From Streptomyces sp. SCL15-4 (GTDB taxonomy: Bacteria; Actinomycetota; Actinomycetes; Streptomycetales; Streptomycetaceae), in assembly GCF_033366695.1 (NCBI RefSeq), contig NZ_JAOBTQ010000002.1, positions 1-14,814 on the forward strand: a stretch of DNA of 14,814 nt. Direction: 5' to 3'. This document shows, piece by piece, positions 114-14,758 of this stretch. Below the pieces are notes generated by a model. That model was not told where the DNA came from and ran no database searches. It was given only the letters and a program-made list of their open reading frames with translations. The number at the start of each line of letters is the position of its first letter. Position 1 is the first letter of the stretch. The position numbers and the translations under genes were made by a program.

Positions 114-1346
114 CTAGTCAGGGGCCGTTTCGGTGGGCTGTCGGTCCCACAGATGGACCGTGGCGCCGGTCCGGAGCGGCGCCCCCTCGGGGCCCTTCAC
201 GTGGCCGGAGACGATCCGGTCCTCGTGCGTGCATCCGCCCTCGGCGTGCGCGCGGGGGTCCATGCACGTTGACCGGCGGTAGGGGCGTACGGGCCACCGG
301 CAGGACCACTGAGGCTCACGGCGCCCGGTGCTGGCCTGCGCGTCGTCCTGCGCTGCCTGCGGGGTCGGACGGTGCGCGGAGTGGACGCGGACGACGCGGA
401 CGGCGGACGAGCCGGTGACGCCCTGGCGGCGGTCGCGCTTGGCTCCGGCCCGGGCCCGGGGGATCTCGTCGACTTCGGCCCACCGGTTCTTCCCCTGCTG
501 GGCCATGAGCTGCCACGCGGTGTAGAGGACGTGCGCCCACCGGTCGGTGGTGTCCGGCACGGGCGTGTCGAACGGGGCGCCCTCCCGGAGCAACATCTCG
601 TTGTCCCACCCGAGGGGCGGCCCCTGCGCCTCCCGCAGGCCATCGATCATCCCGGCCGTCATCACCATGCCGTCCCGCATGGTCCCGATCACGGTCTCGG
701 GCGGCAGGCCGGAGAACAGTCCCCGAGGGCTGTAGAAGGTGATCCACACCCCCGACCAGTCGGCCGGGACGGTGCCGGCCGATCCGGCGCCCCGGTACAG
801 CCAACGAACCTCGCCCTGATCGAGGGTGACCTCCCTGGGGGTCCACACCGACCAAGAGGCGGCCACGATCGGCGTAGTGATCTGCGCGGAGGCTCCGGGA
901 GTTCCGAAGGGCGTGTTGGCCAGGGCGGCGCCGGCGTCCTCGGTGTATCCGCCGATCGGTTCCCCGAACACGATGAATCCGGACTCCGAGGGGAGGCGGG
1001 AGAGCGTCACCGGCTCGGTGGGCGGGGTGTGCGCTGCGGCCAGGGCGAGCGCGGTCATGTCCGGGGTGGCGTAGTACAGCTCTGCTGTCTCCAGCCGGCG
1101 CCGCTCGCAGGCCGTGAGCAGTAGGGCCCCCACGGACCCTTGGGACGCTCCGATCCCGGGGACCGTGGGAACGATCGTGGAACGGCCCGCGCGCAGTGCC
1201 TCCCGCATCGTGACCTTCGTGGAATCGGCGTCGAGATGTTCGAGCAACTCCGCGCGCCACTCCGGGAGCTGCTGGGGATCGGGCGGGGTCCATCGCATAC
1301 GGGAGTCATCGCTCACGCGGCAGACCATACAAGCGGGGTACGACAC
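114..1346 (-). CDS. Plasmid/phage-type hypothetical protein with Cys/His-rich C-terminus (410 aa)
   Basis: I do not recognise a biochemical function. The start used is GTG at 1346. GTG at 1316 (protein beginning VSDDSRMRW) is an alternative, and neither has a strong ribosome binding site. The protein is soluble, with no signal peptide or membrane segment. Its N-terminal ~270 residues are a mixed alpha/beta region without familiar motifs. The C-terminal ~110 residues contain a basic stretch and then Cys and His spaced as in CRWPVRPYRRSTC followed by GGCTHED, ending in HVKGPEGAPLR and VHLWDR. From memory, this kind of tail (basic strand, WPVR, 'KGPEGAPL', 'VxxWDR') is frequent in actinobacterial plasmid and phage hypotheticals. 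The C/H residues could bind zinc. Its upstream region is the repeat cluster at 1349-1702, so it may be controlled by, or bind, those repeats. That link is inferred only from position. Confidence 0.75.
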   Translation of the reverse strand: MSYPACMVCRVSDDSRMRWTPPDPQQLPEWRAELLEHLDADSTKVTMREALRAGRSTIVPTVPGIGASQGSVGALLLTACERRRLETAELYYATPDMTALALAAAHTPPTEPVTLSRLPSESGFIVFGEPIGGYTEDAGAALANTPFGTPGASAQITTPIVAASWSVWTPREVTLDQGEVRWLYRGAGSAGTVPADWSGVWITFYSPRGLFSGLPPETVIGTMRDGMVMTAGMIDGLREAQGPPLGWDNEMLLREGAPFDTPVPDTTDRWAHVLYTAWQLMAQQGKNRWAEVDEIPRARAGAKRDRRQGVTGSSAVRVVRVHSAHRPTPQAAQDDAQASTGRREPQWSCRWPVRPYRRSTCMDPRAHAEGGCTHEDRIVSGHVKGPEGAPLRTGATVHLWDRQPTETAPD

Positions 1347-3113: not shown

Positions 3114-3833
3114 TCAGCTCAGGGGCGTTGACCACTTCAACACCGTGGACCCGTGGCAGACCTTCACCGCAACTTCGACGATCCGGCCGTCCGTGAGGAA
3201 CACCGTTCGCACCACCTGCGTCACGATCACGGACCCGGTGAGGCCTAGAGCCTCTTTCTCCGGCTCCGTGGCGTGCCGGGAGGTCACCTCTTCCAACACC
3301 CGGTCCTGACCGACTCCGAGGCGTTCGGCGGCCAGCTCCCGGGAGGCTCCGGTCGAAACGGGCTGGGTCAGTTCGGGGGTGGCTTCCACCACGAACGCCG
3401 CGTAGTACGACGACGACAGGTGGACGGGCGCCCCGTCCCGGCTCACGATCCGGCGCCGGACGTGCACGGGCGTGCCCGGCTCGACTTCCAGCCGTGCGGC
3501 AACGGTCTCGTCTGCACCGACCGTGCCGACTTCCAGAATCCGGGAGGTCTCCCCGCTGGCGAGTGCCCGGCCGGTGGCCGCGTGGTTACGGACCCGGGCC
3601 GCGATGTTGTCGCTCGCCGGCCGCGCGACCACGGTGCCCGTGCCGGTGCTGGCGCGCGTCAGTCCTTCTGCCTTGAGCACCTTGTATGCCCTGCTCGCGG
3701 TCGCGCTGGACACGTGCCAGGTCTCCATCACTTCCCGGATCGGCGGCATCCGGTCCCCGGGGTTCATCGCCCCGCTACGGATCAGGCCGCGGAAGTGCTC
3801 CGCAATGTCCGCGTACCCGGTGTTCCCTGCCAT
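3114..3833 (-). CDS. GntR-family transcriptional regulator with UTRA domain (KorSA-like)
   Basis: The protein has 239 residues, the usual size for GntR/HutC-type repressors. Residues ~5-70 form the winged helix-turn-helix: YADIAEHFRGLIRSG, then GDRMPPIREVMETWHVS, ATASRAYKVLKAEGL and the wing STGTGTVV. Residues ~90-235 match a UTRA-type effector domain (VHVRRRIVSRDGAPVHLSSSY, then a C-terminal VFLTDGRIVEV). The ATG at 3833 is preceded by aaagggtgag. It is divergent from the transfer genes across a 127-bp region, the classical arrangement in which KorSA-type repressors of Streptomyces elements control themselves and tra. That control is inferred from family and position; the ligand is unknown. 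Confidence 0.9.
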   Translation of the reverse strand: MAGNTGYADIAEHFRGLIRSGAMNPGDRMPPIREVMETWHVSSATASRAYKVLKAEGLTRASTGTGTVVARPASDNIAARVRNHAATGRALASGETSRILEVGTVGADETVAARLEVEPGTPVHVRRRIVSRDGAPVHLSSSYYAAFVVEATPELTQPVSTGASRELAAERLGVGQDRVLEEVTSRHATEPEKEALGLTGSVIVTQVVRTVFLTDGRIVEVAVKVCHGSTVLKWSTPLS

Positions 3834-3960: not shown

Positions 3961-4497
3961 GTGAGCACACCGACCAACGCCGCCAGCAGCGGCAAGACGA
4001 TGAACGACTCGGCGAAGTTCGGGGCGTCCTTCGCTCCCTCCTTCACGCTGAACCTCTCGCAGAGCAAGACCAACAACAACGGCGGCGGCGGGGGTGCCGG
4101 CGGCGGCGCGGTCCCCGCACAGGGCGGCCGGGGCGGTCACCCGGAGAGCCTGCTCCCGCCGCCGGAGTTCACCTCCCCCGCGGACGTGCGCAACTACTGC
4201 AACCACCTGCGGGCCGTCATGGTGACGCTCAGCTTCGAAGTGGCCATGGGCGCGGAGATCCTCAAGGGCGTGCTCGGCACGGTCCCGGACCCCGAGGGCC
4301 GTATCGGCGGCTCGAAGGCCCGCGCGTGGCGCGTCTCCCGGAAGCTCGCGAAGTCCGCGGACGCGGCCGCCGCCGCCGCGAAGAACGCCGCCGCCACGTA
4401 CGCCGCTTTCCAGCAGGCGTACGAGGAGGAGATCAACCGAGTCAAGCACCGTGCGCGGCGCCCCCAGGGTCCGCGCATGGACTGGGCGCAGCAGTAA
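3961..4497 (+). CDS. Small transfer-associated protein upstream of traB (178 aa)
   Basis: The chosen start is GTG at 3961, preceded by cggagag at good spacing. The reading frame stays open far upstream, but it runs antisense through the regulator gene and lacks a ribosome site there. The N-terminal ~65 residues are low complexity: Ser/Asn-rich, then a glycine run (NNNGGGGGAGGG). The rest is predicted helical and amphipathic (RNYCNHLRAVMVTLSFEVAM, then an Ala/Lys-rich stretch ending YEEEINRVKHRARR). I see no signal peptide. Proteins of this size and layout often precede the FtsK-type transfer gene in Streptomyces plasmids and integrative elements. The 13-base gap to traB suggests co-transcription. 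An accessory role in TraB-dependent transfer is likely, but no mechanism can be read from the sequence. Confidence 0.8.
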   Translation: MSTPTNAASSGKTMNDSAKFGASFAPSFTLNLSQSKTNNNGGGGGAGGGAVPAQGGRGGHPESLLPPPEFTSPADVRNYCNHLRAVMVTLSFEVAMGAEILKGVLGTVPDPEGRIGGSKARAWRVSRKLAKSADAAAAAAKNAAATYAAFQQAYEEEINRVKHRARRPQGPRMDWAQQ

Positions 4498-4510
4498 AGG
4501 GGTCAGGGCC

Positions 4511-6517
4511 ATGGGTGAGAAGGACATCGAGCAGCAGCACGAAGAACAGCTCAAGGGCGCGTCCAAGCCGTCCGCGGTCGGCGCCTACCTCCTGCACCGT
4601 GCCAAGCCGCATCTGCCGCCGTGGATCGGCACGGCCGGTGTCGGTCTGGCGGGGTCCGGCGCACATCTGATGTGGGCGGACTCGGCATGGGCCGGGGTCG
4701 GCCTGACCCTCTCGTCCGTGGCCCTGACCGCGGCCACGTGGTGGGCGGGCCGCGGGACGAGCGCGCAGCGTCGGCTGCACTCCGCGATCACGGTTGCGGC
4801 CGGGTCGCTCTGGTTCACCGGGGCGGCCCTGTCCGGGCCGCTCGCGGGCCCGCTCCCGGACCTGTACCTGATGGGCGGAGCCGTGACGGCCCTGTCGTGG
4901 AACGTGCGCATGGTCATGCGCCGCAACCCCGACGCGGTCACCACGGGCGAGTCCTCGGACAAGGGCCTGCTGGAGAAGGTGGGTCTGGCCCGTACGAAGC
5001 TGGGCGCGGTCAAGGTCGAACCGAACAAGGTCACCGCGCCCTACGCGCTCCCGGCGGGGGAGGCCACCAACGACGACGTGTCGCGGAGCCTGCCGCGTAT
5101 CGCGTCCGCGCTGGACGTGCCGACCACGGCCGTGCGCTACCGGCCCGACCCCGAGTCGGCGCGCAAGGGCGAGTTGGTCATCGTCCCGAACGACATGCTG
5201 AAAGAGATCATCTGGTACCCCGGGCCGTCGGCTCCGGGCGGCTCGGTCGCGGAGCCGCTCGTCATCGGGGTGTACGACGACGGCCGGGAGCTGCGCCTCA
5301 CGCTCCCCCAGGCGATCCATCTGCTCGTCATGGGCGTGACCGGCTCCGGCAAGACCGAGGCGGCCATGGACGTCATGGTGGAGATCCTGACCCGCCGGGA
5401 CGTCGTGGTGTGGCTGTCCGACCCGAAGCGCGGCCAGGACCTCGGGGAGGCGTTCGGCGCGTGCGACTGGGTCGTCACGACGCAGGACGGCGCCGCCGTG
5501 ATGATCGAAGCGTTCAAGGCCGTGATTCCGGCCCGTCAGCTCTGGCTGGGCCAGCACGGCTACCGGTCGTGGGAGCCTGCCGCCGCGGTCCGCCAGGACG
5601 ACCCCGCGCACACCTGCCGCGAGGACGGCGCGGCGTGCGGGTGCCCCGGCATGGCCTACCTGGTCGGCTGGTTCGAGGAGGCGGCCAACACGCTGCGGGC
5701 CGTGGACGACGACGCGTTCACCGGCATCGCGCAGGAAGCGAGGAGCGCCGGCGCCTCCCTGGTCGTCTCGATGCAGCGCGCGTCCGGCTACCAGATCAGC
5801 ACCGACACCCGCGCGTCCCTGCCGTCCGCGCTCTGCCTCGGGGTGGACGAGCGGGACGCCGGTTTCGCCCTCCCCTCCGATGTGTTGGAGGCGGGCGCCA
5901 ACCCGGGCGCCTGGGGGAACAAGCGGCCCGGCTACTGCTACCTGGTCAGCGCGGGCGTGGACGAGGAACTGTGGTCCACCCCCTCCCGGACGTTCCGCAA
6001 CGACCCCGTAGCGCTGGAGTGGGCGGTTCGGGAGTTCGCCGCGGTGCGGATGCCGGTGGACGACGTGACCGCCACGGCGGCGGCCTCGGTCGCCGGACAG
6101 CTCTACACCGACCGCCAGAGCCCGGCCGCGGGCACCGCCACCGAGGGCGGCCCGCAGCGTGCCGCCAGGACGGAAGACAACGACGTGACGACCGACACCG
6201 AACCGCTGGTTGACCCCGAGGACGAGGGAATCGACCCCGAGGCCGAACTCCCCGAGGCGAGCGACGCACCGATGTTCGGCGCCCCGGCCGGGGACGAGCC
6301 GCACGACCCGCGGGAGGCCATCGAGGACATCCTCCGGGAGTTCGAGCAGGCGGGCCGCATGGTCGTCCAGACGAAGGACTTCATGGAGCACTGTGACCGG
6401 CACGGCCGGTCCCGGGCGTGGGTCTCCGGACAGCTCGGACGCCTCGGCCGGGAGGGGCGGCTCGTCCCCACGGGAGGCCACAAATACCGGATCGTCCCGG
6501 CCCTGACGTCAGCCTGA
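4511..6517 (+). CDS. traB: FtsK/SpoIIIE-type conjugative DNA translocase (TraB)
   Basis: The protein has 668 residues from the ATG at 4511 (upstream taaagggg). It is inferred to be the hexameric ATPase that moves double-stranded plasmid DNA between mycelial cells. Residues ~35-135 contain three or four hydrophobic membrane segments (WIGTAGVGLAGSGAHLMW, GVGLTLSSVALTAATWW, then a third and fourth stretch). The motor domain has Walker A GVTGSGKT at residues 275-282, followed by VVVWLSDPKRGQDLGEAF. The Walker B position reads AYLVGWFEEAA (~382-392), with E389-E390 but no aspartate. Between them is a Cys-rich insert (HTCREDGAACGCPG). The last ~70 residues form a winged-helix domain (from EAIEDILREFEQAGRM onward), which in Streptomyces TraB proteins binds short repeats of the clt locus. 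The stop overlaps a GACAC-rich repeat array that could be that locus. Expression is probably repressed by the divergent GntR protein. Confidence 0.92.
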   Translation: MGEKDIEQQHEEQLKGASKPSAVGAYLLHRAKPHLPPWIGTAGVGLAGSGAHLMWADSAWAGVGLTLSSVALTAATWWAGRGTSAQRRLHSAITVAAGSLWFTGAALSGPLAGPLPDLYLMGGAVTALSWNVRMVMRRNPDAVTTGESSDKGLLEKVGLARTKLGAVKVEPNKVTAPYALPAGEATNDDVSRSLPRIASALDVPTTAVRYRPDPESARKGELVIVPNDMLKEIIWYPGPSAPGGSVAEPLVIGVYDDGRELRLTLPQAIHLLVMGVTGSGKTEAAMDVMVEILTRRDVVVWLSDPKRGQDLGEAFGACDWVVTTQDGAAVMIEAFKAVIPARQLWLGQHGYRSWEPAAAVRQDDPAHTCREDGAACGCPGMAYLVGWFEEAANTLRAVDDDAFTGIAQEARSAGASLVVSMQRASGYQISTDTRASLPSALCLGVDERDAGFALPSDVLEAGANPGAWGNKRPGYCYLVSAGVDEELWSTPSRTFRNDPVALEWAVREFAAVRMPVDDVTATAAASVAGQLYTDRQSPAAGTATEGGPQRAARTEDNDVTTDTEPLVDPEDEGIDPEAELPEASDAPMFGAPAGDEPHDPREAIEDILREFEQAGRMVVQTKDFMEHCDRHGRSRAWVSGQLGRLGREGRLVPTGGHKYRIVPALTSA

Positions 6518-8443: not shown

Positions 8444-8899
8444 ATGAGCAGCAGCAACGGAACCCCGATCACCCTCGTGGGCAACCTGACCGATGACCCG
8501 GAACTCCGCTTCACCCCCTCGGGGGCCGCCGTGGCGAAGTTCTCCGTAGCGGTCAACCGCCGCCAGTACGACGCACAGTCCGGGGAGTGGAAGGACGCCG
8601 GCACCGACTTCCACCGGGTCTCGGCATGGCGGTCCCTGGCGGAGAACGTGGCCGCCACCCTGGCCAAGGGAATGCGCGTCGTCGTCGTGGGGGACCTGCG
8701 ACAGCGGACGTGGACGGACGAGAAGACGAGCGAGAAGCGGTCCGCGTGGGAGGTGGACGCCTCCGCGGTCGGCCCCGATCTGGCGTTCGCCACCGCCACC
8801 GTGACCAAGACGACCCGCACGAGCGGGTCCGCCCCCGGTGACGAGACGTGGGAGACCGCGAGCCGCACCCGTCCCGCCGCCGCCCCGTCCGGCCGGTGA
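8444..8899 (+). CDS. ssb: Single-stranded DNA-binding protein (plasmid-type, 151 aa)
   Basis: The ATG at 8444 follows ggaagacgac. Residues ~8-110 are a typical bacterial SSB OB-fold: ITLVGNLTDDPELRFTPSG, then VAKFSVAVNRR, FHRVSAWRSLAENVAATLAK, GMRVVVVGDLRQRTW and SAWEVDASAVGPDL. It would coat single-stranded DNA during replication or after transfer. The tail is short and ends RPAAAPSGR. It lacks the acidic DDDIPF-like tip that housekeeping SSBs use to recruit partners, so it may be a dedicated protector rather than a recruitment hub. Its stop codon overlaps the next gene's start (GTGA at 8896). Presence on the element fits the putative polymerase and terminal-protein genes downstream. Confidence 0.93.
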   Translation: MSSSNGTPITLVGNLTDDPELRFTPSGAAVAKFSVAVNRRQYDAQSGEWKDAGTDFHRVSAWRSLAENVAATLAKGMRVVVVGDLRQRTWTDEKTSEKRSAWEVDASAVGPDLAFATATVTKTTRTSGSAPGDETWETASRTRPAAAPSGR

Positions 8900-9603
8900 C
8901 CGCCGTGGGGGGCCGGCCCGAAGTGCTGGACCTGTTCTGCTGCGCGGGAGGGGCCGGAGTCGGGTACGCGCGCGCAGGGTTCGCGGTGACCGGGGTGGAC
9001 CTGGTGGACCGCCCCCGCTACCCGCACCGGTTCGTGCGCGCCGACGCGCTGGAGTACCTGGCCGCCCTGATCGCCTCGGGGGAGATCCGGCGGTTCGCGT
9101 TCGTCCACTCCTCCCCGCCGTGCCAGGCCGGATGCGCGCTCACGGTCGGCACGAACGCCTCCCGAGGGTGGGGCCGCGAACACGTGCAGCTCATCCCCGC
9201 CCTGCGGGAGTTGCTGGACGCCACCGGCCTCCCGTACGTCATCGAGCAGCCGGACGGGGCCGCCCCGGTCCGTAAGGATCTGCGGCTGTGCGGCGAGATG
9301 TTCGGGCTCGGGGTGCTGAGGCACCGCAACTTCGAAGTGTCGGGGTGGACGTTCCTCGCTCCGCCGCACGTCCCCCACCGGGGCCGGGTGCGCGGGTACC
9401 GGCACGGGGTCTGGCACGAGGGGCCCTACGTCGCCGCGTACGGCAAGGGCGGGGGGAAGGCCACCGTGCCGGAGATGCAAGCCGCCATGGGCATCGACTG
9501 GACGGACGTGCGCGAGGAACTGACCGAGGCGATACCGCCGGCCTACACCGAGTGGATCGGCTCCGCGTTCCTCGAGGTATCCGGTCTGGCGGTCGCGGCG
9601 TGA
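8896..9603 (+). CDS. DNA cytosine-5 methyltransferase-like protein (235 aa)
   Basis: The start is GTG at 8896, overlapping the ssb stop. Residues 10-21 (VLDLFCCAGGAG) form the SAM-binding motif I, and SSPPCQ at 72-77 is the motif IV catalytic loop with nucleophile C76. Motif VI, normally Glu-Asn-Val, reads VIEQPDG, with E117 kept but Asn replaced by Gln. The C-terminus IPPAYTEWIGSAFLE resembles the motif X helix. At 235 residues it lacks room for a full target-recognition domain, like compact enzymes found in actinophages and plasmids. No cognate restriction gene is seen, so an orphan role such as protecting the element from host restriction is likely. Loss of activity through the Asn change is also possible. 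Confidence 0.82.
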   Translation: MTAVGGRPEVLDLFCCAGGAGVGYARAGFAVTGVDLVDRPRYPHRFVRADALEYLAALIASGEIRRFAFVHSSPPCQAGCALTVGTNASRGWGREHVQLIPALRELLDATGLPYVIEQPDGAAPVRKDLRLCGEMFGLGVLRHRNFEVSGWTFLAPPHVPHRGRVRGYRHGVWHEGPYVAAYGKGGGKATVPEMQAAMGIDWTDVREELTEAIPPAYTEWIGSAFLEVSGLAVAA

Positions 9604-9610
9604 CCGCACG

Positions 9611-9630
9611 CCGATACGTTCCGGTATCGG
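9611..9630. repeat. Dyad CCGATAC-GTTCCG-GTATCGG
   Basis: Perfect 7-bp arms lie just after the methyltransferase stop. The half-sites are the same as in the dyad at 1384-1399, but in the opposite order. It may be a binding site or simply a hairpin preceding the terminator at 9665. Confidence 0.4.
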
Positions 9631-9664
9631 GGGCCCTCCCCGTACGGTGACCGCGCGGACGTCC

Positions 9665-9706
9665 GGCGGCCCGGTGCCCTCCCAACAGGGAGAAAACCGG
9701 GCCGCC
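9665..9706 (+). terminator. Terminator after the ssb-methyltransferase pair
   Basis: ggcggcccggt (9665-9675) pairs exactly with accgggccgcc (9696-9706). The loop contains ccct...aggg, which extends the stem, and a short run of A. It lies about 60 bases after the stop at 9603 and before a new transcription unit. Confidence 0.8.
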
Positions 9707-10666: not shown

Positions 10667-10924
10667 GTGCAGGACAAGAGTACCCAGTCAGCACCCGAAC
10701 TGACCACAGATCCCCGTGTGACCCCCGTCGGGGGTACCGGCCGGGTGACCACGGTCACCGACGGGACGACCGCTTACCTGATCTGCCGGACCGTGCGCGG
10801 TCGCGGCGGGTGGGGCGTGCACTGCGCCGCGGGTGAACTCATCACCTCCGGATGGCCGACCCTCACCCGGGCCCGCGCGTACGCCGATCGCCTGCTCTCC
10901 CGGAAGGCGGGGGCGGCCGAATGA
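10667..10924 (+). CDS. Small basic hypothetical protein coupled to the polymerase gene (85 aa)
   Basis: The start is GTG at 10667 with gagg six bases upstream. The long in-frame extension to 10493 overlaps the previous gene and lacks a ribosome site. Residues ~25-80 form a compact domain (GRVTTVTDGTTAYLICRTVR, then GWGVHCAAGELITSGWPTLT and ARAYADRLLSRK), probably a small beta-sheet followed by a helix. It has no recognised family. Its stop overlaps the ATG of the 1085-aa gene (ATGA at 10921), so the two products are probably made together and may interact. Confidence 0.7.
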   Translation: MQDKSTQSAPELTTDPRVTPVGGTGRVTTVTDGTTAYLICRTVRGRGGWGVHCAAGELITSGWPTLTRARAYADRLLSRKAGAAE

Positions 10925-13900
10925 CCGAGACGACCCCGACCGCCGGGCCGCGGGCCCCCCGCCCTCGGACCGAGCGGCCCCTCCGTGTGGTCACCGGCTC
11001 CGACGGGGCCCGGGAAGAGATCATCACGGAACGGATCGCGGACCGGTACGAGGCAGACGAGAACGGGCACTACCGCGTGAGCCGCTCCTACGGCGAGAAC
11101 GCCGCCGGGGACCGGGTCACGAAGGTGTCCCGCAAAGAGATCCTGTCCGCCCGCGCGGAGATCACCGCCGCGTACGCCGACGACACCGGGGAGCCGTACC
11201 CGATCGCGGCCACCGAGACGACCGACCGGTCCCGCCCCGTGGTCACGTACTACGACCTGCGGGTCTCCCGGGAGGACGCGGGCCCGGTCGTCGTCGACAC
11301 GGTCCCGGCCGACGACTTCGACAAGTTGGCGTGGTTGGACCGGCAGGAACTCGCGGAGATCCCGCAGGTTCTCGCGGCCACCGGCCAGACCGCGCGCGGG
11401 GACATCGTGACGTCGATCCGCCTCGGGTCCGCCCGGTACCCGACCATCCCCGCGTACTCCCGCCTCGGGTGGCACTGCCGCGACGGCCGGTGGCTGTACG
11501 TCCACGGCGGCGGCGCGTGGACCAAGGATGGCGCCCTGGACGTCCCGGTCTACGGCAACGGCCTCGGGGTGTTCACCATGGCGCCCCCGCCCGAGGACGA
11601 CGCGGCCGGCCGCCGCGCGTTCGATGCGCTGTGGCAGTTGTTCGGGATGACCCCGGACAAGTTCGCCGCGGTCGAAATCGGCGCCGTGTTCCGGGCCGCC
11701 ATGGGGCGCCCCTCGGGGAGCTGCACGTACTGCGCGGTGAACCGCTCCGGGAAGTCCGGCCACATGGCGTTCCTGACGCAGTGCTGGGCCCCCTCGGTCC
11801 GCTGGAACACGCTCCCCTTCAACGCGGGGAAGGCGTTCGCCACTCCGGCCTATGTGGAGTACGTCCACCACACGTTCGGGGACATGTTCGTCGGGTGGGA
11901 CGACATGGCCCCCACCGGCTCCGCACGCGAGCGCGCCGACTATTTCGACCTGTTCGCCCGGTCCCTGTTCAACGGCTCGTCCAAGGGCCGTATGGGCATC
12001 AAGGACGGCAAGATCGTGGCCCGTGACCGGCTCCGGCCCCGCGCGTTCGGCGGTCTGTCTGCCGAGGACGTGACCGCGGTCGAGTCGGCGCAGAACCGAA
12101 CCCACCTGTTGCAGCTCTCCCGCGGGGAGTTCGACCCGGCCGCGTTCGCGGCGGCCGACGAGAACGGCGGCCCCTCGGACCGCTCCGCGCTCATGTCCGC
12201 GTTCGTCATCTGGTGGGCGGCCAAGATGCCGGCGCACGCCTACGTCTCCGAGCTCGAGCACCGGTTCGCCGCGGACCTGACCGCCGCCACCGAGGCGCCC
12301 GGCCGCTACGTCGAGTCGTCGGCGGACAAGGCGGCCGGCCTCTTCTGCGGTCTGGAGTTCGCGCTCTCCCGCGGGTGGGTCACGCAGGACCGGGCCCGGG
12401 AGCTGTGGGAGCGGGGGTGGGCCGGTCTGTGCGAGTCCCTGCGCGCGCAGGTGGACGCCAACTCCGGCCAGTCCATGGCCGACCGCATCCGGGACGCCAT
12501 CCTTGACGGACTGGCGGTCGGGGACGTTCACGTCCTGGACGTGCACGGCGGGATGCCCGCGCAGGGGCAGGCCCTCGGGTGGCGCGGGGAGTACGCGCAG
12601 GGCGCCGGTATCGGCTGGACGGACGGGACCCGCCTCTACCTCCTCCCGTCCGCCGCCGCCCCGTACGTCATCCAGAAGTCGGCCGACTCCGGCGCCCCCA
12701 TCGAGATCACGGCCCGCGCCATGGGAGAGGCCCTGGAAACGGCCGGATACATCACCGGGGAAGACGAGAACCGCGGCGGCCGGATCACCCACCGGCACAC
12801 CGCCTCCCAGTGGATCTCCGTTGCCCGCGCCACGAAGAAGGTGTGGTCCATGCCCGTCCCCGTCGAGACCGACGGCGGCCAGGGCGACGCCACCGAGGAC
12901 GGCCCCCAGACCCCGCAGGGCCCCGAGGGCGGCCCCCTCGTGTGCCGCGGGTGCGGCAACGCCATGGACGCCGATTTCAACGGGGACGGACTGCACCCCG
13001 GGTGCGACGCGCCGGACGAGTGGCCCGCGGGCACCCTCGGAGCCTCCGTGAGCGACCGCCCGGCCCTGGCCGCGGTCCCCGACCCGGTGACCCCCGAGGC
13101 GGCCCCCCTGGCGGTCCCTGCGGGCCCCGTGGTCGTGGACGAGCCGGTCCTCCCCGAGCCGGAGCCGGAGCCCGCCGCGGCCCCCGCCCCGAGCCGTCAG
13201 GCCTCCCCGAAGGTGCGGCCGGAGCCGACCGTGTGCGCGAGCATCGCGGACCGTGTGGCCGCCGCCCTGGAAAAGGCCGGCGGGGACGTCGACAAGGCAA
13301 CCGCCGCTCTGATCAAGACCGCGATCCCCGACGGGATGGAGCTGTTGGAGTCGACGCGGGTGTCTGCCCGGTACGACTTCACCGCGCACCCGCCGGAGCC
13401 GGAGATCCTGCGCAAGCCGTCCAAGAACGGCGCCAACGACGTGTGGGAGGCCCGTCCGAAGTGGACGAACCCCACGACCCCGGACGGCACTGAGGTGCAG
13501 CTCCTGGACGTGAACGCCGCCTACCTCTCCGCGCTGAACACTCACCTCCCGATCGGTGCGTTGCAGCACGCCACGGGCGGGGAGTTCGACCGGCGCCGCT
13601 CCGGTCTCTACCGGATCACCCCGCCGGAGTGGACCCGGACCGACCTCCCCAACCCCATCGGGTCCCGGGAGCTGTCCGGGGACCTGTGGGTCACCCGGCC
13701 GACCCTGCAACTCCTGTTGGACGCGTCCTCGGAGAAGTACGGGCGCCTGTGCGATGCACCGGTCATCCACGAGTCGTGGACGAGCGGGTCCTCGGAGTCC
13801 ATCCTCCGCGCCTTCCGGATCATCCTCCGGGACGCGCGCGCGGCGGCCATCGAGTCGGGGGATGACGTCACCCTCGCGTACGTCAAGGCCATGTATTCCA

Positions 13901-14178
13901 AGTTCATTTCGACGTCCGCGAAAGCCTCCAAGTTCAATCACCTGATCGAGCGCACGGACTGGTCACAGATCATCCGCGCGCAGGCACACGGGAATCTGTG
14001 GCGCCGCGCATTCAAGGCACACACCGCCGGTCTGACCGTTCACCGGATCACCGGAACCGACGAATTGCACGTGGCCGGAGACTGGCGCGCGGTATTCGCT
14101 GAGGGTCGGGGACTGACCGAGATGAAGACGAAGGGTGCCTATGTCGTCGGCGCCCCGGTCGCAAAGATGGGGGAGTGA
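10921..14178 (+). CDS. Tap-like fusion: primase/SF3-type helicase ATPase, zinc motif and B-family-like polymerase (1085 aa)
   Basis: The ATG at 10921 overlaps the upstream stop. The N-terminal half resembles primase-associated helicase ATPases of actinobacterial mobile elements: Walker A AVNRSGKS (272-279, first Gly replaced by Ala), Walker B MFVGWDDMAPTGS (322-334), then RSLFNGSSKGR, a Gly-rich basic segment, and a later winged-helix-like part (WTDGTRLYLLP to ALETAGYI). A zinc motif follows: C675, C678, H692, C695. Residues ~700-765 are a Pro/Glu-rich linker. The C-terminal domain carries B-family polymerase-like motifs: A, LLDVNAAYLSALNTHLPIGA (D863); B, YVKAMYSKFIST (K989, Y992); C, ITGTDELHV (D1047, with Gly where the first Asp of DTD normally sits). 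Streptomyces Tap proteins are known to prime and extend terminal protein at telomeres, and tap precedes tpg in an operon, as here. The likely role is replication initiation and/or telomere patching. The domain assignment is from motifs only. Confidence 0.78.
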   Translation: MTETTPTAGPRAPRPRTERPLRVVTGSDGAREEIITERIADRYEADENGHYRVSRSYGENAAGDRVTKVSRKEILSARAEITAAYADDTGEPYPIAATETTDRSRPVVTYYDLRVSREDAGPVVVDTVPADDFDKLAWLDRQELAEIPQVLAATGQTARGDIVTSIRLGSARYPTIPAYSRLGWHCRDGRWLYVHGGGAWTKDGALDVPVYGNGLGVFTMAPPPEDDAAGRRAFDALWQLFGMTPDKFAAVEIGAVFRAAMGRPSGSCTYCAVNRSGKSGHMAFLTQCWAPSVRWNTLPFNAGKAFATPAYVEYVHHTFGDMFVGWDDMAPTGSARERADYFDLFARSLFNGSSKGRMGIKDGKIVARDRLRPRAFGGLSAEDVTAVESAQNRTHLLQLSRGEFDPAAFAAADENGGPSDRSALMSAFVIWWAAKMPAHAYVSELEHRFAADLTAATEAPGRYVESSADKAAGLFCGLEFALSRGWVTQDRARELWERGWAGLCESLRAQVDANSGQSMADRIRDAILDGLAVGDVHVLDVHGGMPAQGQALGWRGEYAQGAGIGWTDGTRLYLLPSAAAPYVIQKSADSGAPIEITARAMGEALETAGYITGEDENRGGRITHRHTASQWISVARATKKVWSMPVPVETDGGQGDATEDGPQTPQGPEGGPLVCRGCGNAMDADFNGDGLHPGCDAPDEWPAGTLGASVSDRPALAAVPDPVTPEAAPLAVPAGPVVVDEPVLPEPEPEPAAAPAPSRQASPKVRPEPTVCASIADRVAAALEKAGGDVDKATAALIKTAIPDGMELLESTRVSARYDFTAHPPEPEILRKPSKNGANDVWEARPKWTNPTTPDGTEVQLLDVNAAYLSALNTHLPIGALQHATGGEFDRRRSGLYRITPPEWTRTDLPNPIGSRELSGDLWVTRPTLQLLLDASSEKYGRLCDAPVIHESWTSGSSESILRAFRIILRDARAAAIESGDDVTLAYVKAMYSKFISTSAKASKFNHLIERTDWSQIIRAQAHGNLWRRAFKAHTAGLTVHRITGTDELHVAGDWRAVFAEGRGLTEMKTKGAYVVGAPVAKMGE

Positions 14179-14182
14179 CGAC

Positions 14183-14758
14183 ATGGTAGGCAAAATCACA
14201 GGCGAATTCGGAGCGCACGGAAAGCAGGGCGGGGAAGCAATTTCCGACCGGCTCACGGAACTTGCCGGGGGTATCAAGTCGTCCGCCATGAGTGAGCGCG
14301 GATTGGAGGCGCGTCTCAAGTACCTCACGAACTCCCCCGCCGGATATCAGGCAATGGAGCGGGCCGGTATCAGCGTCACCCCGCGCACGCTTATCGCGTG
14401 GCTGTCCGGGGACCGTGACCCGAACAAGGCAAACCGCGGCCGACTCGATGCCGCATACGCCGACCTGCGGCGCCGCAACGTGGCGAAGAACCTGAAAAAC
14501 CGGCTCAACAACAACGGGCGCGGAACGCGCGTGGAAGTCCACCCCATCACGCAGGCAGGGGTCACCCCCTCCCGGCAACGGGCCCTGGAAGTCCGCAAGG
14601 TCAACATCCGCCCGTCCCAGTGGGACCGGCTCGTCGACCTGTGGGCCGCCGGGGACGTCGACGCGATGAACGACGAGTGGGAGGACATTGCCGAGGACAC
14701 CCTCGGCTCCGAGTGGGGCGCCTACACCGCCGTTGCGGCCATCGGATTTGGCGCGTAG
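14183..14758 (+). CDS. Tpg-like putative terminal protein with helix-turn-helix (191 aa)
   Basis: The ATG at 14183 has gggggag upstream and starts 4 bases after the polymerase stop. Residues ~35-75 (LEARLKYLTNSPAGYQAMER, then AGISVTPRTLIAWLSG) form a helix-turn-helix. A basic stretch follows (RDPNKANRGRLDAAYADLRR, then RNVAKNLKNRLNNNGRGTRV). Residues ~130-150 include VRKVNIRPSQWDRLVDLW, and the end is acidic then hydrophobic (DDEW-like to AIGFGA). Streptomyces Tpg (~184 aa) shows the same order: a YL-containing helix, an RTV-type HTH, an Arg-rich linker, then a V-x-L-x-x-x-Y/W segment before an acidic helix. Tpg is covalently joined to DNA 5' ends and primes synthesis. The size, order and position directly after a Tap-like gene support this role. 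A plain DNA-binding regulator is the alternative. Confidence 0.65.
   Translation: MVGKITGEFGAHGKQGGEAISDRLTELAGGIKSSAMSERGLEARLKYLTNSPAGYQAMERAGISVTPRTLIAWLSGDRDPNKANRGRLDAAYADLRRRNVAKNLKNRLNNNGRGTRVEVHPITQAGVTPSRQRALEVRKVNIRPSQWDRLVDLWAAGDVDAMNDEWEDIAEDTLGSEWGAYTAVAAIGFGA

Follow-up and report, generated by a model that had tools for sequence, protein, structure and literature searches.

A linear-plasmid protein of Streptomyces that joins an initiator-helicase-like region to a telomere enzyme core of predicted phi29-like polymerase fold

Introduction

How might a small linear plasmid both start its replication and complete its own ends? The question is raised by a contig of Streptomyces sp. 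SCL15-4 (NZ_JAOBTQ010000002.1, 14,814 bp, analysed over its whole length and called the window below), on which one gene encodes a 1085-aa protein joining a helicase-like region to the core of Tap, the Streptomyces telomere enzyme, directly ahead of tpg, the gene for the terminal protein (TP) Tpg. A first-pass annotation, made from the sequence, had read this protein as a helicase-type ATPase joined to a protein-primed-like DNA polymerase, an interpretation that is partly supported by the analyses reported here. We propose, with a probability of roughly 0.7, that the fusion protein is the replicase of the plasmid, its helicase half opening the origin and its phi29-related Tap core priming the ends on Tpg.

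The biochemical background comes from the study by Yang, Tseng and Chen 2015 (PMC4513846). As described there, outward replication leaves 3' overhangs in Streptomyces linear replicons, and S. lividans Tap and Tpg, with no added polymerase, link dCMP to Tpg and extend it to 13 nt, Tac acting likewise on Tpc. In the same study, Tap and Tac are said to be without a polymerase motif and to form a new class, and Streptomyces genomes are said to encode no family-B polymerase.

Results

The open reading frame (ORF) at 10921-14178 (+) comprises 1085 codons, with internal stops absent, and all motifs named by the first-pass annotation are present in its translation (Table 1); the coordinates given there are correct. 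Residues 20-670 are common to 22 proteins (query included), 10 of these 22 N-terminal relatives being 84-100% identical over that region and 1060-1087 aa in total length. The fusion occurs in one open frame at 5/5 further genome loci, two of which are identical contigs (L039 and L041), and in two sister plasmids annotated as complete and linear, from S. canus NBC_00866 (17,342 bp; fusion protein 87.5% identical to that of the window) and Streptomyces sp. NBC_01506 (15,075 bp; 79.6%). The 22 proteins with this N-terminal region, the two complete linear plasmids and the five loci show that the ORF is not due to chance. No relative of the fusion protein was found among 50,697 phage records, and no IMG/VR stretch fitted the patterns used in the search for a viral home. 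L039 and L041, both contigs of 16,490 bp and titled Microtetraspora glauca and Streptomyces xylophagus, share identical 10,437-base stretches, by recent transfer, mislabelling or contamination.

The polymerase palm that had been predicted for residues 770-1085 was recovered by structure modelling. The AlphaFold2 (AF2) model of this Tap core is confident (predicted local distance difference test, pLDDT, 91.6; predicted template modelling score, pTM, 0.90), and Foldseek ranked phi29 polymerase well above all other folds, with both palm and fingers matched. The matched part of phi29 begins at residue 168-186; a 3'-5' exonuclease domain is absent from the fusion protein, whose N-terminal half matches helicases. 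The two catalytic Asp residues (motifs A and C) and the Lys of motif B occupy the same positions in the Tap core and in phi29-type polymerases. A protein search returned 227 proteins at E<=0.001. Across the best 120 of these Tap-type relatives, Asp stands at the D863 position in 119, the remaining one having a gap there, and K989 and D1047 do not vary (120/120 each).

The viral library gave 33 rows at E<=0.001, those not named as polymerases being three poxvirus proteins, one densovirus 'structural protein', one uncharacterised and five nameless entries. A ten-phage profile was used because the comparison with phi29 as a single sequence was not significant. Against this profile the real 120-row profile scored 35.7 and the best shuffle 24.2 (300 shuffles, 290 of which were scored and 10 gave no score). 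Searches of the fusion protein against Pfam, NCBIfam and PHROGs gave nothing meaningful and no polymerase family, and neither did PDB sequences give anything meaningful; with the A1 profile, PDB sequences returned mainly DnaB helicases, owing to DnaB-like N-termini in the alignment, and no polymerase. On the basis of the model, we call the Tap core a distant relative, and not a member, of the phi29-type family-B polymerases, because it has no 3'-5' exonuclease domain. The predicted fold suggests that the catalytic domain of Tap is family-B after all. No paper assigning Tap to family B was found among the open-licence papers searched.

For the N-terminal half (residues 45-651), the best structural matches were SaPIBov1 Rep and SCCmec Cch, which act as replication initiators. 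They include Walker A and B and a winged-helix-like end at residues 517-651; Pfam gave no helix-turn-helix (HTH) match in the fusion protein. Of the SF3/primase-type ATPase proposed in the first-pass annotation, the Walker motifs and a predicted helicase fold are seen, and the best structural matches are the SaPI Rep/Cch initiator-helicases. The C-C-H-C zinc motif is indeed found at residues 675-695, and is weaker than the other motifs, its regular expression matching only 12/22 N-terminal relatives. Pfam gave no DUF927 (PF06048) match above cut-off in the fusion protein, and a weak one, under cut-off, in the related protein P0018. The window-type N-terminus was found in 3/392 Streptomyces genomes, that of the window included.

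The 191-aa protein to which deoxynucleotide addition had been suggested as a test proved to be Tpg (14183-14758). It is 45% identical to Tpg of Streptomyces sp. T12 and 84-87% identical to the Tpgs of the plasmids L003 and L002, and it matches 152 plasmid records. Its start at 14183 directly follows the stop of the fusion gene at 14178. A TP or TP-like gene lies directly 3' in 8/8 other plasmids examined (S. canus, NBC_01506, goshikiensis, pRL2, pAL1, pPR2, NBC_01310 and pRHL2) and at 5/5 genome loci; since similarity between TPs of different classes is weak, some of these are so named by position. In the window Tpg, Arg follows T115, but in S. lividans Tpg the residue after T114 is Asp; given this difference, we do not claim T115 as the attachment residue.

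Table 1. Coordinates of the fusion gene, its regions and other annotated genes in the window (14,814 bp).
Feature	Coordinates	Strand	Basis
Fusion gene, 1085 aa: initiator-helicase-like N-terminus, Zn-finger-like motif and linker, Tap-core polymerase	10921..14178	+	Open frame and relatives
SaPI Rep/Cch-type initiator-helicase region, residues ~51-650, winged-helix-like end 517-651	11071..12870	+	
Walker A NRSGKS, residues 274-279	11740..11757	+	G277-K278-S279 invariant in 22-sequence alignment
Walker B region VGWDDMAP, residues 324-331	11890..11913	+	D327-D328 invariant in 22-sequence alignment
C-x2-C-x13-H-x2-C motif, residues 675-695, possible zinc knuckle	12943..13005	+	Pattern in 12/22 relatives
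Pro/Ala/Glu-rich linker	13006..13227	+	Translation; low pLDDT at residues 701-773
Tap core, residues 770-1085, predicted phi29-type protein-primed family-B fold without exonuclease domain	13228..14175	+	AF2, Foldseek, VIA, A3 invariants
Motif A DVNAAYLSAL, residues 863-872 (D863)	13507..13536	+	
Motif B KAMYSKF, residues 989-995 (K989, Y992)	13885..13905	+	
Motif C GTDELHV, residues 1045-1051 (D1047)	14053..14073	+	
tpg, terminal protein of 191 aa, presumed protein primer	14183..14758	+	Similarity to known Tpg
traB, plasmid transfer ATPase	4451..6517	+	NCBIfam NF041214, E 7.8e-255
ssb, single-stranded DNA-binding protein, plausible partner of the fusion protein	8444..8899	+	Pfam SSB, E 7e-31
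GntR/UTRA regulator	3114..3833	-	Pfam GntR 4.3e-12, UTRA 1.7e-18

The Tap core is much more widespread than its present N-terminal partner, being found in 159/392 Streptomyces genomes. The fusion protein is matched by 164 plasmid-collection records; among the best 60, rows H4-H60 align only from query residue ~758-788 on (54-61% identity), most of them falling within genes whose annotation is that of an HTH protein. Varied N-termini precede the core in its relatives (HTH, DnaB-like, DUF927 and the window's own type). BLASTP grouping of the N-termini of the same best 120 proteins yielded groups of 85, 25, 9 and 1; a GK[ST] string occurs in 3/85, 18/25, 9/9 and 0/1 of them, respectively, and the group of 85 mixes HTH and DnaB-like proteins. 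In DnaB-like Taps (e.g. P0078, P0085 and P0097), the Walker A motif reads GxGxS/T without Lys in 11 of the 16 inspected, these being the ones where the motif was found, which suggests that the DnaB-like domain would be inactive in Taps lacking this Lys. The window-type N-terminus (55-68% identical) also precedes other polymerase classes, in P0123, P0124/P0125 and P0126/P0127. Conversely, P0011 carries a DUF927 helicase ahead of a core 91% identical to that of the window, and its BLASTP comparison with the window protein gives one significant match, from window residue 564 to the end. Judging from these alignments, helicase and polymerase modules are swapped between telomere proteins.

The host genome (8,422,239 bases in two contigs, one of which is the window) shows no second archetypal tap or tpg beyond the plasmid copy. 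A search of the chromosome with the A3 profile detected a diverged member at 8,246,414 (E 9.5e-16). This 743-aa protein (locus 8,245,148-8,247,946) has an N-terminal HTH, a motif A reading IDVNMAF and a motif C reading SDCVVY; beyond the HTH it resembles the pAL1 polymerase class (9.4e-23). Another gene, of 185 aa and itself with weak HTH matches, lies 9 bases downstream, and together the two probably serve the chromosome as an end-patching pair of non-archetypal type. On the other arm, a second A3 match at 145404-145574 (E 3.8e-6, in a 116-aa frame) is perhaps a remnant. Because the chromosomal pair is diverged and the genome has no second archetypal tap/tpg, it seems that the plasmid comes with an end-patching pair of its own that differs from the chromosomal one. 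By eye, the chromosome contig has at its right end what resembles another type of telomere, with tightly packed palindromes starting CCCGCGCTGCGCGCGGG (inverted strand); the left end is unlike it, and no terminal repeat shared by the two ends of this contig was found. A3 profile members at E<=1e-8 are present in 42/61 Streptomyces genomes. Some occupy ~750-860-aa frames in genomes without a match to the archetypal core (e.g. G005, G006, G007 and G044), and these proteins are candidate end-patching enzymes of non-archetypal telomeres.

The window itself is the whole of its contig. The gene order traA, traB, ssb, fusion gene and tpg homolog is common to the S. canus NBC_00866 and NBC_01506 plasmids, and DNA similarity to the sister plasmids spans most of the window, including the traA region. 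Sister plasmid L002 has inverted terminal repeats of ~1.3 kb, 91% identical; window bases 49-98 are similar to L002 at 1299-1350. On the other side, the window stops ~1.25 kb inside sister plasmid L003. From these end positions we infer that the contig represents the unique portion of a small, conjugative-type linear plasmid and lacks ~1.25 kb, telomeres included, at each end.

Three other features of the window were noted. A 251-aa ORF at 8848-9603 (+) looks by eye like a cytosine-C5 DNA methyltransferase (DLFCCAGGAG, PPCQ); Pfam gave no family above cut-off for it, and no such gene is annotated in L002 or L003. A 410-aa ORF at 114-1346 (-) matches phrog_15934 (E 4.8e-18), a phage family without known function. 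Finally, a perfect palindrome with 18-nt arms lies at 1665-1702 around GTACGTCA, with similar palindromes in L002 at 9617-9680 and 14925-14962; it could be a binding site or a terminator.

Discussion

We propose that the N-terminal ~600 residues, of SaPI Rep/Cch initiator-helicase type, would open an internal origin of the plasmid, which host enzymes would then copy outward, leaving 3' overhangs. By analogy with S. lividans Tap/Tpg, the C-terminal 316 residues, forming the Tap core, would hold Tpg and add the first nucleotides, and a host polymerase would presumably fill the remainder of the end. Origin firing and end patching being combined in one plasmid protein, the plasmid would therefore not rely on host telomere proteins of another class.

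Several observations weigh against this proposal. Motif C reads GTD and not DTD, and motif B is degenerate, without NSxYG. The hhalign comparison of the Tap core with phi29 alone gave P 0.16. Taken singly, the goshikiensis, pPR2, pRL2 and pAL1 classes gave P 0.03, 0.11, 0.45 and 0.3 against the ten-phage profile and the diverged chromosomal protein 0.7, the values for two helicase profiles used as controls being 0.75 and 0.37. The model of the helicase half has low confidence around the Walker motifs. The repeat search for origin iterons found only short repeats in few copies, and the scan of window genes that recognised no other initiator did not cover every window ORF, so that the plasmid may carry another one.

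The most serious alternative, which we consider unlikely, is that the helicase half serves the telomere only, melting hairpins or clearing the Tap core for another polymerase to extend the Tpg-linked primer, firing of the origin being left to the host or to a plasmid gene that was not recognised. The best structural matches, winged-helix-like end included, are replication initiators, and the scan of window genes offered no other candidate for that role; both observations favour a function at the origin. The lack of detected iterons speaks for a telomeric function, as does the fusion of the helicase to the telomere enzyme itself, and a helicase has been suggested, in the study by Yang et al. 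2015, as needed for the removal of Tap from Palindrome II (PMC4513846). It is decidedly improbable that the C-terminal domain is polymerase-like but inactive, Tap merely positioning Tpg for a host polymerase. The GTD in motif C, the degenerate motif B and the earlier link of end patching to DinB polymerases (PMC4513846, introduction) fit such a view, but the three catalytic residues are near-universally conserved, and polymerisation in vitro takes place with Tap and Tpg as the only proteins (PMC4513846).

Assembly of two adjacent genes into an artefactual fusion was also considered, as each module is found elsewhere without the other and a low-complexity linker lies between them here; since both complete plasmids, independent contigs and 5/5 loci have the same continuous frame, this is ruled out for practical purposes. 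There is little to recommend the idea that Tap is a primase of another fold and that the phi29 match is misleading. A 2017 paper reportedly calls Tap a 'Telomere associated primase' in its title, but this wording may name an activity and not a fold, and the confident model places phi29 polymerase well above other folds.

The replicase reading can be set in a broader frame, which we favour with some reserve. Actinobacterial telomere polymerases would form one exonuclease-less, phi29-related superfamily, taking in archetypal Tap and the pRL2, pPR2, goshikiensis, pAL1/Rhodococcus and diverged chromosomal classes. Small linear plasmids would have joined its members to SaPI-type initiator-helicases, so uniting origin firing and end patching in one polypeptide, and this one helicase would have been combined anew with several classes of polymerase.

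The fold assignment of Tap outweighs the fusion in importance. If Tap has a phi29-type fold and the catalytic residues named here, the telomere enzyme of Streptomyces would be placed in a known family of polymerases and telomere patching would gain a catalytic domain not recognised before; its mode of action would become a testable question of enzymology, and bacterial linear chromosomes would be tied to protein-primed viruses. The polymerase profile moreover detects diverged members in Streptomyces without archetypal Tap. The fusion, for its part, indicates how a small replicon could combine origin firing and end patching independently of the telomere class of its host.

Comparison with known systems

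The closest relatives of each half differ from the window protein in distinct ways. SaPIBov1 Rep and SCCmec Cch share with it the AAA+ helicase fold, Walker A/B and the winged-helix-like end, at ~10% identity, but in the fusion this helicase is joined to a polymerase. Phi29-type polymerases resemble the Tap core in sequence only at the profile level. The Streptomyces Tap/Tpg pair shares with the window the Tap core (54-61% identity in the listed plasmid rows) and a tpg gene directly downstream, but known Taps have an HTH-type N-terminus (PMC4513846), replaced in the window protein by an initiator-helicase of ~600 residues.

A combination of archetypal Tap core and SaPI Rep/Cch-type helicase was not found among the open-licence papers searched. 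Other telomere proteins come close to it. In pAL1 of Arthrobacter and pRHL2 of Rhodococcus, a helicase region (1.7e-19) and a polymerase region (2.5e-12) homologous to those of the window lie in one chain with a TP gene next to it, but these proteins, of 1707 and 1792 aa, are longer, carry an additional N-terminal part and belong to another Tap class. Because their N-termini have CHC2 zinc-finger matches (E 1.3e-4 and 0.077, weak and under the curated cut-off), they may be primase-helicase-polymerase chains; Pfam detected no CHC2-type N-terminal extension in the 1085-aa window protein. The pAL1 protein was reportedly presented by Kolkenbrock in 2010 as a novel replicative enzyme. The DUF927 telomere proteins of pRL2 and pPR2 likewise unite helicase and telomere polymerase in one chain with a TP-like gene downstream, but their helicase is of DUF927 type, to which that of the window is at most distantly related, and their polymerase belongs to another class. 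The pRL2 protein has been described, as cited in PMC8743542, as similar to Tap and to a helicase. Helicase-Tap fusions are thus already known from pRL2 and pAL1, and the architecture of the window protein is a variation on this known design.

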